Below are positions 19,265 through 26,099 of a stretch of DNA of 64,000 bases, piece after piece. A program made the translations under genes and the position numbers. The notes beneath the pieces were generated by a model. The model worked only from the letters and a program-made list of their open reading frames with translations, was not told the origin of the DNA and searched no databases. The stretch lies in NCBI GenBank assembly GCA_018402585.1, contig JAGYIO010000005.1, positions 1-64,000 on the forward strand, read 5' to 3'. The stretch is from Chthoniobacterales bacterium. GTDB taxonomy: Bacteria; Verrucomicrobiota; Verrucomicrobiia; Chthoniobacterales; JACTMZ01. The stretch's first letter is position 1, and the number at the start of each line of letters is the position of its first letter.

Positions 19265-19837
19265 ATGTCTAAAAGCGCTTCCGCAACCATTCACTCTGTC
19301 ATCCGCACGATCCGCGGCCGCAAGGTCATCCTCGATACCGACCTGGCCGCAATCTACTCCGTCACGACCAAGCGCCTCAACGAGCAGGTCAAACGCAACA
19401 AAAGCCGCTTCCCGGAAGACTTCATGTTCCGGCTCACACCCGCGGAGAAGCGGGAGGTGGTCGCAAAATGCGACCACCTCGCCACCCTCAAATTCTCCAA
19501 AAGCCTCCCCTACGCTTTCACCGAACACGGCGCCATCATGGTGGCCACCATCTTGAGTACCCCGCAGGCTGTGAAGATGAGCGTCTTTGTCGTGCGCGCT
19601 TTCGTGCGCATGCGCGAGCAACTGACCGCGAATGCCGCCATCCTCCGCCGGTTGGCCGAGATCGATCGCACGCTTCTCCTCCACGATAAGGATTTGTCCG
19701 CGCTGTGGGATCGCCTCCAGCTTTTGCTCGAGCCGCCCGATGACGGAGCGGCCGATGAGTCGAAAACCGAAATCGGCTTCCACGTTCGCGAGAAGGCTGC
19801 GCGCTACAGAGTAAAACGCACCCGACAACAACGCTGA
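19265..19837 (+). CDS. ORF6N-domain protein
   Basis: 190 aa. The N-terminal ~100 residues are the ORF6N DNA-binding domain. The evidence is 'IRTIRGRKVILDTDLAAIYS', 'TKRLNEQVKRNKSRFPEDFM' and 'LPYAFTEHGAIMVATIL'. The C-terminal part is a helical region with 'LAEIDRTLLLHDKDLSALWD'. ORF6N proteins occur in phages and in chromosomal islands. This one lies next to tRNA-Ser, a usual integration site, which hints at an old mobile-element origin; no integrase is seen. Confidence 0.85.
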   Translation: MSKSASATIHSVIRTIRGRKVILDTDLAAIYSVTTKRLNEQVKRNKSRFPEDFMFRLTPAEKREVVAKCDHLATLKFSKSLPYAFTEHGAIMVATILSTPQAVKMSVFVVRAFVRMREQLTANAAILRRLAEIDRTLLLHDKDLSALWDRLQLLLEPPDDGAADESKTEIGFHVREKAARYRVKRTRQQR

Positions 19838-22559: not shown

Positions 22560-23111
22560 TCAGTCCAGAAGTTGCCGCACCTGCGCCCAGCTCTGTCCCA
22601 TCTGGTCGCGATCGGAAAGCAGCGGCACCTGCCCGGCCTGGAGAGGCCACGGAAGACCGACCGCAGGATCATCCCAAGCCAGGACCTGGGCGTATGGTGG
22701 ATCCCATGGTGCGGTGACTTTATACGAGTAGATCACCTGCTCGCTGAGCGAGAGAAAGCCGTGGGCGAAGCCGGGAGGGAGCCAGAGGCTCGTGTGGTCA
22801 CTGGCGCGCAGGACGAGGCCCTCGGCCCGGCCGAAAGTGGGCGAGTCCGGCCGCAGGTCGACCGCGGCATCGTAGACCTCCCCCTCGAGCACAGTGAGCA
22901 GCTTGCCCTGCGGATGCCGCGTCTGGAAATGGAGACCGCGCAAGGTGCCGCGCCGGGTTTTGATCAGGTTGTCCTGCAGGAAATCCCCGGTGATCCCGGC
23001 GCCGGCCAGTTCATCCCGATTCCAGAGCACTTCGTAAGTGCCCCGCGCATCAGTCTGCACCGGGTGCGCCAAGAGGACCATGCCGTGCAGTGAGGTCGGG
23101 CGGACTTCCAT
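22560..23111 (-). CDS. rfbC: dTDP-4-dehydrorhamnose 3,5-epimerase
   Basis: 183 aa, family length. Core motifs are 'NLIKTRRGTLRGLHFQ', 'HPQGKLLTVLEGEVYDAAVD' and 'LWLPPGFAHGFLSLSE' with the active-site His and the Tyr of 'IYSYKV'. It catalyses the third step of dTDP-L-rhamnose synthesis. RmlA, B and D are not adjacent. It lies downstream of rpsD, separated by a palindromic repeat, so it is probably not part of the ribosomal operon. Confidence 0.88.
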   Translation of the reverse strand: MEVRPTSLHGMVLLAHPVQTDARGTYEVLWNRDELAGAGITGDFLQDNLIKTRRGTLRGLHFQTRHPQGKLLTVLEGEVYDAAVDLRPDSPTFGRAEGLVLRASDHTSLWLPPGFAHGFLSLSEQVIYSYKVTAPWDPPYAQVLAWDDPAVGLPWPLQAGQVPLLSDRDQMGQSWAQVRQLLD

Positions 23112-23246
23112 GACGACCGACTTGATAGCAGGCCGACCCCACCGGAGTCACGGGTGGCTTTCGGCAGCAGCACCAGATCGCAGGGCGGCAGGCTGGTCAT
23201 GCACTCGAGCCGGGGACGGTTCGAGAGCCACCGCCAAAAAAGCAAA

Positions 23247-23272
23247 TCGCGCCGGGACGGCGCGATCCACCT
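23247..23272. repeat. GGTGGATCGCGC half-repeat
   Basis: 'ATCGCGCCGGGACGGCGCGA' plus TCCACC, the same as the right half of the 10891-10956 pair. It forms a hairpin 25 bases downstream of the rpsD stop and may end the ribosomal transcript. Confidence 0.7.
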
Positions 23273-23296
23273 TGTGGAAATTTGCGGGTGCCGCTT

Positions 23297-23908
23297 TTAC
23301 CGCGAGTAAAGTTCGACTACGAGCTGCTCGTTGACCACCGGGGCGATTTCTTCGCGGGTCGGGATACGGTTGACCGTGCCGGAGAAATTTTCCCGGTCCA
23401 CCACGAGCCAATCGGGCACAGTGCGGATCTGGGTGGCTTCCATCTGGCGGGCGGCCAAGGCACGGGGTTTGGGCGAATCTTTGATCGAAACCACGGCGCC
23501 GGGCTTCAGGTTGGCCGAAGCGATGTCGTTCTTGCGTCCGTTCACCTTGACGTGGCCGTGCGCCACCATTTGCCGGGCGGCGGTACGGGTGCGGGCGAAG
23601 CCGAGACGGTACACGACATTGTCCAAACGGGTCTCGAGGAGCTGGAGGAGGGTCAGACCGGTGACACCGCGGCGGGAAAGCGCCGTCTCGAAGTAGCGGC
23701 GGAACTGACGCTCAAGGACGCCGTATTGCGCTTTGAGCTTCTGCTTCTCGAGCAGGGCCAAGCCGTATTCCGAGGTCTTGCGGCGCATGCCTTTTTGTCC
23801 GTGCATACCCGGCGGATAGCTCCGACGCTCGAAATGTTTGGGTGAGCCGACGAGGAAAATGCCGAAGCGGCGGCTCAGTTTGGTTTTGGGTCCGGTGTAA
23901 CGTGCCAT
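23297..23908 (-). CDS. rpsD: 30S ribosomal protein S4
   Basis: 203 aa, normal length. 'MARYTGPKTKLSRRFG' start and an S4 RNA-binding domain at about 90-150 ('TRLDNVVYRLGFARTRTAAR'). No zinc-binding cysteines, so it is the zinc-free type. Primary 16S binder that organises the 30S body. Usually followed by rpoA and rplQ; here neither follows. Confidence 0.97.
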   Translation of the reverse strand: MARYTGPKTKLSRRFGIFLVGSPKHFERRSYPPGMHGQKGMRRKTSEYGLALLEKQKLKAQYGVLERQFRRYFETALSRRGVTGLTLLQLLETRLDNVVYRLGFARTRTAARQMVAHGHVKVNGRKNDIASANLKPGAVVSIKDSPKPRALAARQMEATQIRTVPDWLVVDRENFSGTVNRIPTREEIAPVVNEQLVVELYSR

Positions 23909-24616: not shown

Positions 24617-25012
24617 TTAGGTTTTGCCGGCTTTGGCGTCGGGGTTTTTCTGCACGCCGACCGTCTTGCGCGGTCCTTTGCGGGTGCGGGCGTTGGTCTG
24701 GGTGCGTTGTCCGCGCACGGGCAACCCGCGGCGGTGGCGGATGCCGCGGTGACAATTGATGGCCTGCAGGCGCTTGAGGTTGCCCTGCAATTCGCGACGC
24801 AGGTCGCCCTCGATGAGGACACCGTTGTTGCCGATGATCTGGACAATCTGCGAGATCTGCTCGGGCGAAAGATCTTTGGCGCGGGTGTTGGGATCGATCG
24901 AGGCTTCGGCCAGGACGCGCTTGGCGACGGTCGGTCCGATGCCGTATATATAGGGCAGGGAGGCTTCGATGCGTTTGTTGGGCGGGATTTCGACCCCGAG
25001 GAGGCGTGGCAT
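24617..25012 (-). CDS. rpsM: 30S ribosomal protein S13
   Basis: 131 aa, start at the '[14 protein letters not shown]' ATG (25010-25012). Helix-two-turn-helix '[18 protein letters not shown]' and the basic tail '[18 protein letters not shown]' typical of S13, which contacts tRNA and the 50S (bridges B1a/b). It sits 7 bases after rpmJ. Confidence 0.97.
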
Positions 25013-25019
25013 ATGCGTG

Positions 25020-25133
25020 TTATCCTTGTCTTTGTTTGTGGCGCGGGTTTTTGCAAACCACACGCACAACGTTGTTCCGCCGGATGATCCGGCAGCCTTC
25101 GCAAAGGCGTTTGACTGAAGCTCTGACTTTCAT
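25020..25133 (-). CDS. rpmJ: 50S ribosomal protein L36
   Basis: 37 aa: '[20 protein letters not shown]' and then '[17 protein letters not shown]'. The zinc-ribbon residues Cys11, Cys14, Cys27 and His32 are present, so this is the zinc-binding form. The ATG is 12 bases after the ancestral infA stop. Confidence 0.96.
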
Positions 25134-25145
25134 GGTGTGATCCTT

Positions 25146-25362
25146 TTATTTCTTTCGGTCGGTGATGCGGCCTCAACTCAAGTCACCGGGACGACTCGAT
25201 CATGATCTGGTCACCAGGCGAGGTGCGAATGAAGCGCGTGCGCCTCTTGCCCGAATTGTGCGCGAGAGTGTGTTGACCGCTGGGCATACCCCCCCGGCAC
25301 AACTTGCTCGGCAGCAAATCGTCAATCTTGACCCCTACTTGCATAACTTCTTTTTTCGCCAT
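25146..25362 (-). pseudogene. infA: Translation initiation factor IF-1 relic
   Basis: In the canonical map-infA-rpmJ position and close to the ancestral length (217 bases). The open part is 59 codons: 'MAKKEVMQVGVKIDDLLPSK', 'LCRGGMPSGQHTLAHNSGKR' and 'RTRFIRTSPGDQIMIESSR', stopping at 25183. It aligns to IF-1 (LAHISGKMRKNFIRILPGD). The missing C-terminus is still readable one frame over: 'DLS*GRITDRKK*' (25184-25146), matching IF-1 'DLTRGRI' with TGA in place of CGA. One frameshift and one nonsense codon are present. The normally conserved 'FRVELENGHVV' is also changed. The start overlaps the end of map by 28 bases. Confidence 0.8.
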
Positions 25363-26099
25363 GTCAAAACTTCCGGTTCATTTTTTGTCACCAGCACGGT
25401 GTGCTCAAAATGGGCCGAGGGTAGCCCGTCGGCCGTGACCACGGTCCACTTGTCGTCCAAAACCCGCACCGCGCTGACTCCCAAATTGATCATCGGCTCG
25501 ATGGCCAAGGTCATTCCAGCCTTGAGCTTCGGTCCACGCCCGGCTTTACCGTAATTGGGTATCTGCGGATCTTCGTGCAATTTGCGCCCGACCCCGTGGC
25601 CGACGAATTCGCGGACCACCGAATAACCGCGGGCCAAGGCGGCCTGCTCGATGAAAGAGGAAATGTCCCCCACCCGGCGTCCGTGGGTCAGGTGCGGGAT
25701 GACGTCGCGCAAGATGCGCGCGGTGTCTTCGACCAGGCGGTCGACTTTGGGCGGGACCACGCCGATGCGGATGGTGGTGGCATTGTCGCCGATCCAACCG
25801 TCTTTGCTCACCCCGACGTCGAGTTTGAGGATGTCACCGTAGGCCAGACGGCGGTCACCGCCGATGCCGTGCACCACTTCTTCGTTCACCGAGATGCAGA
25901 GGTGCCCGGGAAATTTGCGGTAGCCGAGGAACGCGCTCTTCGCCCCGGCTTCCTCGATAAATTGGGCGCAAGCCTCGTCGATGTCGCGCGTGGTCATGCC
26001 GGGAGTGACCAGATTCTGCAACTTGTCGAGCACCCCGGAGGCCACGCGGCAAGCGGTGCGCATCGCCTCGATCTCGCGCTCGTTCTTGATCGGGATCAT
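25335..26099 (-). CDS. map: Methionine aminopeptidase
   Basis: 254 aa; start ATG 26097-26099 ('MIPIKNEREIEAMRTACRV'). Type I MetAP metal ligands appear in 'LKLDVGVSKDGWIGDNATTI' (two Asp), 'VGHGVGRKLHEDP' (His), 'AIEPMI' (Glu) and the final Glu in 'HFEHTVLVT'. It removes the initiator Met from nascent proteins. In the spc operon after secY, the usual place (adk absent). Confidence 0.95.
   Translation of the reverse strand: MIPIKNEREIEAMRTACRVASGVLDKLQNLVTPGMTTRDIDEACAQFIEEAGAKSAFLGYRKFPGHLCISVNEEVVHGIGGDRRLAYGDILKLDVGVSKDGWIGDNATTIRIGVVPPKVDRLVEDTARILRDVIPHLTHGRRVGDISSFIEQAALARGYSVVREFVGHGVGRKLHEDPQIPNYGKAGRGPKLKAGMTLAIEPMINLGVSAVRVLDDKWTVVTADGLPSAHFEHTVLVTKNEPEVLTWRKKKLCK

Follow-up and report, generated by a model that had tools for sequence, protein, structure and literature searches.

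The window analyzed here, a stretch of 64,000 nucleotides from a bacterium of the order Chthoniobacterales (Verrucomicrobiota), carries between map and rpmJ what is almost certainly a pseudogene of the canonical ribosomal-operon infA (hereafter infA1), the gene for initiation factor IF-1, most likely replaced by a paralogue, infA2, elsewhere in the same genome. The likely cause is ordinary, namely that the duplicate made the canonical infA1 dispensable. IF-1 is a highly conserved protein whose location in the ribosomal operon is usually assumed without question. Across the order, we consider it fairly probable that the canonical infA has a second job, with codons 48-56 acting as a promoter of rpmJ-rpsM that would outlive the repeated death of the coding function, and that the branch including the window lost this element earlier.

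The window is contig C31 of a 2.46 Mb genome (35 contigs, 89.6% complete). According to the list of open reading frames and Pfam names, the gene order on its minus strand is secY, map, infA1 remnant, rpmJ, rpsM, rpsK, rpsD, and the features of the locus are as follows.

24617..25012, minus strand: rpsM, intact, the next gene downstream of rpmJ (PF00416, 114.8 bits)
25020..25133, minus strand: rpmJ (bL36), intact, with a Shine-Dalgarno-like AAAAGGA upstream (PF00444, 69.7 bits)
25146-25362, minus strand: map-rpmJ slot with the IF-1 gene infA1, broken (frames and genus alignment)
25146..25172, minus strand: out-of-frame trace of the IF-1 C-terminus, GRITDRKK, with TAA at 25146-25148 (genus alignment)
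25173..25175, minus strand: TGA at IF-1 codon 64, in the other frame, aligned with a TAA in each of three sister species and with Lys codons in the six relatives whose copy is intact
25183..25362, minus strand: infA1 remnant, a 59-codon open IF-1 frame, ATG at 25362, TGA at 25183-25185
25184..25185, minus strand: position at which 2 bp present in nine genus relatives are missing (alignment; placement uncertain by a few bases)
25194..25221, minus strand: counterpart of the promoter-like element found within infA1 of related families, reading TCGCCT-N16-TCGAGT, element absent (79 of 300 shuffles as good)
25335..26099, minus strand: map (methionine aminopeptidase), intact (list of open reading frames; PF00557, 155.8 bits)

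The 59-residue frame matches the IF-1 family (InfA, PF01176) with E = 2.4e-5 and 24.3 bits, short of the curated 30.2-bit cut-off; to judge from this match, its homology to IF-1 is beyond chance. Like canonical bacterial IF-1, it occupies the map-rpmJ position, has the same 72-codon extent as the intact copies of the genus, and is 44% identical to the Chthoniobacter flavus protein; unlike canonical IF-1, it is broken, falls below the family cut-off and evolves without purifying selection. A set of 14 reference IF-1s has 27 invariant columns; in the window frame, 14 of these are kept, 6 are changed and 7 are lost past the stop, and the remnant lacks the frame of about 72 codons with a C-terminal GRI(T/V)xR, as well as the purifying selection, by which a functional IF-1 can be recognized. 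A preliminary description of this DNA had read the slot as a decayed IF-1 gene, and the frames, the genus alignment and dN/dS bear this out. The open 59-codon frame overlapping map by 28 bases was confirmed, the overlap between the start of the remnant and the last bases of map being common to all ten aligned genus loci, and the C-terminus that it had read one frame away from this frame, ...DLS*GRITDRKK, is indeed seen on the minus strand. The frameshift placed at about 25185 is present and can be specified as a 2-bp deletion at 25184/25185 relative to nine genus relatives. The statement that the TGA replaces a conserved Arg codon was in error, as six intact genus copies have Lys there.

Comparison with relatives, proposed in the same description, was carried out on the ten genus members with a readable map-rpmJ gap; in the same synteny, six carry an intact 72-codon infA1 (G003, G004, G005, G007, G008 and G009), and four carry inactivating mutations (G000, the window genome, with G001, G002 and G006). 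In the slot of an eleventh member, G010 (65% complete), no copy was seen. All four broken copies have a stop at codon 64 (TGA in the window, TAA in the other three), a position held by Lys (AAA or AAG) in 6/6 intact genus copies and by Lys or Arg in other bacteria. They also share, among others, the changes N19S, I36N, I47T, V53I, L55I and L57S. Two indels are private, the 2-bp deletion of G000 and a 1-bp deletion in G001 that shifts the frame near codon 42, and the remnants of G002 and G006 retain 63 clean codons each. On the tree of map DNA, the four species form one clade (support 0.992), and by parsimony the codon-64 stop would have arisen in their common ancestor. The defect had been treated as one of a single genome; the stop is older and common to four species.

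The same comparison bears on the idea, also raised in the preliminary description, of a mis-assembled copy. The assembly is a draft of 35 contigs, and small indels are typical errors; however, the codon-64 stop occurs in four assemblies, one of them represented by the public record CAMBSX010000016.1, which contains the 4,201-base G001 stretch unchanged, the changes of conserved residues are common to all four, the adjoining map and rpmJ are intact, and dN/dS between the broken copies approaches or exceeds 1. With the stop present in three other assemblies as well, mis-assembly is ruled out as its source, the 2-bp deletion being seen in the G000 assembly alone, and an intact infA that merely looks broken through errors of sequencing or assembly is an extremely improbable account of the locus.

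A further possibility is that stop read-through or a programmed shift yields full IF-1, and the codons past the stop are still recognizable as the IF-1 C-terminus in 4/4 broken copies. Against this, three species have TAA and the fourth TGA as the stop, the indels of two species differ from each other, and selection is relaxed upstream of the stop as well. The differing stops and indels led us to reject this candidate, to which we assign next to no probability.

Selection on infA1 differs sharply between the two groups of copies. Over the first 57 codons, dN/dS among the four broken copies is 0.75-1.70 (6 pairs), as against 0.02-0.13 in 14/15 pairs of intact copies, the 15th pair having no nonsynonymous change; map, which has 246 codons without a stop in all ten loci, shows 0.02-0.10 (21 pairs). 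The shared stop, the single clade and this contrast in dN/dS together indicate that infA1 most likely ceased to be a protein gene in the common ancestor of the four broken species. These values also weigh on a shortened IF-1 of 59-63 residues that is made and functional, for example as a partial or regulatory IF-1. The frame is open, the start overlap with map is kept, and two species have 63 clean codons; the dN/dS range, the frameshift near codon 42 in G001 and the change or loss of 13/27 invariant positions in the window nevertheless make a working short protein very unlikely. The 59-codon frame could be made, as the preliminary description noted, and nothing in its substitution pattern suggests that the protein matters. 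Within the four-species clade, the remnant has accumulated 0.27 substitutions per site, compared to 0.50 at fourfold sites of map (Fisher p = 2.6e-5). In the six other species, the fourfold sites of intact infA1 are likewise halved relative to map (0.80 vs 1.60), so the slowness of the remnant can reflect a local silent rate; a weak constraint at the DNA level is possible.

The second full-length infA that the preliminary description expected was found by the genome search at G000:C12:310279-310497; it is intact, encodes 72 amino acids and scores 80.4 bits against PF01176. In a profile search of the 89.6% complete genome, it is the sole PF01176 match (C12:310303-310488), and a 14-row IF-1 profile at E <= 1 added the remnant (44 bits) and one 13-bit match and no third infA; a further infA may lie in the missing part of the genome. 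infA2 was found in 11/11 genus members, the G001 copy being cut by a contig end after the first 47 codons. The relatives with the stop in infA1 (G001, G002 and G006) all have infA2, so that the case named in advance as speaking against decay, a relative with the stop and no other infA, does not occur. In 8/11 members, infA2 is flanked by nuoD and a LuxC-family gene, both named from the Pfam matches of G000; in G001 the LuxC side alone is visible, and neither neighbor was found in the stretch examined for G008 and G010. infA2 is above the PF01176 cut-off, of full length and under purifying selection, with dN/dS of 0.05-0.19 (18 pairs; G001 and G010 left out), as expected of an IF-1; the apparent redundancy of the two genes is consistent with infA1 being a pseudogene. 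On an IF-1 tree, with the low supports expected from 72 residues, infA2 falls into an order-wide class with the motif IRIVPGD (VRIVPGD in the genus of the window) that occurs in f1, f3-f7, f9, f10 and f13, the family and genus labels used here (f1, g1 and the like) being assigned by the genome search tool. A third class (IRLxxGDRVK and similar) is found in several families, and the canonical copies form a group of their own.

The genus carries two IF-1 genes, infA1 in the arrangement map-infA1-rpmJ and infA2. By parsimony, the codon-64 stop and the changes of conserved residues would have occurred in the common ancestor of the four species, followed by further indels, with infA2 intact under purifying selection. 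All IF-1 of the four species would now come from infA2, which we infer to be its sole source. The remnant would persist because it is short and overlaps map, and because map and rpmJ must stay joined in the operon, all of which would slow its clean deletion. It is probably still transcribed, and the 59-residue product may be translated and then degraded.

The loss extends well beyond this genus. We sampled 157 genomes of the order, each at least 80% complete. All 157 have an IF-1 match at E <= 1e-3 (156 above the cut-off), and rpmJ was found in 147. By eye, 51/147 had no IF-1 match beside rpmJ among the matches listed, and the slots of these 51 were read, along with those of two intact controls and of two loci already known to be divergent. 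Among the 51 gaps, 21 are broken or empty infA1 slots (G011, G012, G015, G022, G038, G068, G072, G083, G088, G097, G104, G106, which is empty, G120, G124, G133, G138, G142, G145, G147, G149 and G154), 13 hold open, strongly diverged copies in one genus of f13, and 9 hold open, diverged copies in genus g30 of f6. G020 has an open, very diverged copy, G081 an intact-like one, and the remaining 6 gaps lack map beside rpmJ or are cut by a contig end. With G034, which has two TGA codons inside the infA1 frame, and with G000, G001, G002 and G006, infA1 is broken or gone in at least 26/147 genomes with rpmJ.

At least eight families contain broken or empty slots (f1, f2, f3, f4, f6, f7, f8 and f9), and f13 has one empty slot. 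Intact infA1 is also present in f1, f4, f6, f7, f8 and f9; as six families thus mix intact and lost copies, at least six separate losses follow if the families are natural groups, f6 and f4 not being single groups on the map tree, which is a single-gene tree. An intact copy elsewhere in the genome was read as sequence in G000, G002, G006, G012, G015, G034 and G038; in the other broken genomes, a substitute is suggested by the counts of IF-1 matches (at least one each) and by matches on other contigs.

Several observations on divergent slots stand apart from these counts. Operon infA genes that are open, IF-1-like and fast-evolving were seen in f13 (L132, L135-L139, L143, L146-L149, L151 and L152) and in g30 of f6 (L165, L168-L171, L173-L175 and L177); in two g30 genomes, G108 and G127, the sole genome-wide PF01176 match at E <= 1e-3 is weak (8e-6 and 4e-9, respectively). 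Nine named loci, mostly titled as Kiritimatiellae, Lentisphaerae or Verrucomicrobia, have an empty slot with map and rpmJ 47-101 bases apart and no IF-1 match (L064, L066, L068-L070, L072, L074, L104 and L122).

In five related families (f4, f5, f6, f9 and f12), the intact infA1 genes contain a nearly frozen stretch of codons, I47 L48 P49 G50 D51 K52 V53 M54 L55 E56, written ATC TTG CCA GGN GAY AAA GTT ATG CTA GAG. In 57 genes, TTG is used 56 times (one gene is offset by a codon in the codon table), CCA 50 times, GTT 54 times, and CTA 43 times with GTA a further 12; in the rest of the same genes, CCA and CTA each account for 3% of the codons of their amino acid (Pro and Leu, respectively). Codons 2-9 form another frozen stretch, which the overlap with map explains. 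Read as DNA, the first stretch is TTGCCA-N16-TAGAGA, a pair of -35 and -10 hexamers at a fixed spacing as in a sigma-70-type promoter, present in these families and absent from the window; in most copies the -10 lacks T at its last position and is not the full consensus. The pattern TTGCCN-N16-TANA in codons 48-56 is found in 57/57 intact infA1 of the five families, and Chthoniobacter flavus Ellin428 infA carries it too, starting at NZ_ABVL01000001.1:575067. It is found in none of 51 paralogues (0/31 in the same five families, 0/18 in f1, f7, f8 and f10, and 0/2 in f3 and f13) and in 0/15 intact infA1 of f1, f7, f8 and f10, a split between families, as labeled by the search tool, that was noticed first and counted afterwards. 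TTGCCN-N16-TAGA also stands at the same place in intact infA of 6/52 named loci with IF-1 (L083, L107, L111, L112, L121 and L123, titled as other phyla; C. flavus is a seventh carrier). These six are chance products of the codons, and the case therefore rests on the frozen synonymous codons, the paralogue controls and the broken copies rather than on the motif alone. A scan of 400 kb of G018 upstream of genes gave no clear enrichment of any sigma-70-like pattern and so speaks neither for nor against the element.

The broken copies of f3, f4, f6 and f9 show what survives the frame. With the spacing set at 16 nt alone (other scans left it free at 15-18 and 10-22), 13/17 keep the hexamer pair, with at most 3 of 300 dinucleotide shuffles as good (G012, G015, G038, G068, G083, G088, G104, G120, G138, G142, G147, G149 and G154); the 17 include G138, which is one apparent indel from intact and could be an assembly error, and leave out G140, where the contig breaks off 46 bases upstream of rpmJ. 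In these 13, the 16 spacer bases have drifted to between 6 and 15 identities with the consensus of intact copies, and the gaps are 163 to 365 long. The other four comprise G124 and G133, with nothing, G072, with a weak pair (25 of 300), and G145, with one half (41 of 300). When the spacing is left free from 10 to 22, TTGC...TANA pairs appear in 12/17 broken copies, all 12 at a spacing of 16; these include G072 and exclude G120 and G149, which have TAGTAA and TAGGAA at the -10 place. The nine diverged open copies of g30 keep the element as well (0 to 18 of 300 shuffles). These observations come from the map-rpmJ gaps of other families at L128-L182.

In element carriers, infA and rpmJ are separated by 39-206 nt (12 nt in G048). 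As scored by script, 26/57 intact carriers have a hairpin and then a T-run in this stretch, including 18/34 in f9, mostly CGCGGAG...CTCCGCG or a variant, and the hairpin is kept in 3/4 broken f9 copies. In many leaders of f5 and f6, a T-run with TTTGTCC at its end was seen by eye. The stretch between infA and rpmJ in the 15 intact copies of f1, f7, f8 and f10 is 15-35 nt, and no hairpin was found in it; Rfam yielded no match at the gathering threshold for seven loci of the order. Examples of leaders upstream of rpmJ are L182, L145 and L166.

The fixed spacing with a free spacer, the dependence on genomic place rather than on the protein, and the survival past loss of the frame are the reasons why we infer that the element is a promoter of rpmJ-rpsM inside infA1. 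Old paralogues would make the infA1 protein dispensable, such that its coding function dies repeatedly, and selection would keep the promoter at the exact 16-nt spacing in the ruined gene, often with a leader before rpmJ. The branch that includes the family of the window would have lost the hidden promoter earlier, leaving a dead gene to decay with nothing to preserve.

It could be argued that in the window, too, the slot is kept as such a promoter. The element is universal in the intact copies of the five related families, G002 and G006 retain a correctly placed TTGCCA half (2 and 1 of 300 shuffles, respectively), and bases 150-169 of the remnant vary at 1/20 sites among the four broken copies, about ten such bins having been looked at. 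However, the window itself reads TCGCCT and TCGAGT, no better than 79 of 300 shuffles, the TA at the -10 position is absent in all four broken and six intact genus copies, and the latter have 15-18 nt to rpmJ, with no hairpin found. A promoter-like motif was looked for in the window with the 16-nt-spacing scan and not found. On the map tree, f1 groups with f2, f7, f8, f10 and f13 (support 0.993), and no copy examined in this group has the pattern at the homologous place. A retained promoter is thus unlikely in the window; as its family lacks the element, the remnant most likely represents ordinary decay rather than a preserved promoter, probably held in place by just its size and the map overlap.

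Second copies of infA are known in other bacteria, such as betaproteobacteria, where the operon copy is kept; Chthoniobacterales resemble them in having two infA genes per genome. Among the papers listed, covering titles, openings of abstracts and few subscription papers, no report was seen of a bacterium losing infA from its ribosomal operon, nor of infA containing a promoter. In the portion of PMC4918201 on which we draw, infA is called essential in E. coli, and plastid genomes are described as having lost infA many times in parallel, the gene being transferred to the nucleus (Millen et al. 2001, cited in PMC4918201). Compared with the plastid case as presented in that portion, the pattern here is alike in the repeated parallel loss from the original genome with another copy supplying IF-1, and unlike in that the stand-in is an old paralogue within the same bacterial genome rather than a nuclear transfer, and in that a promoter-like element outlives the gene in related families.

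What is unusual here is that the gene is essential, that it was lost separately so many times in one order and that a promoter-like element outlives it elsewhere. Close relatives are caught before, during and after an apparent replacement of IF-1, which allows direct tests of how the paralogues differ, and the related families offer a natural experiment on overlapping information, in which conservation after loss of the protein shows what else the gene encoded. In the annotation of Chthoniobacterales genomes, the absence or disruption of infA in the map-rpmJ slot should not be taken as an error.

Some minor observations on the window remain. A near-invariant 20-base stretch with one variable site and the palindrome GATCATGATC is present in the four broken copies (window 25193-25212 and homologous positions in L033, L034 and L036). 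rpsD is followed by a dTDP-4-dehydrorhamnose 3,5-epimerase gene, not by rpoA (22560-23908), and the best match to the rpoA C-terminal domain lies on another contig (G000:C32:148866). ORF6N-domain proteins are frequent in phages and mobile elements, and one is encoded at 19265-19837 of the window (PF10543, E 6e-30).
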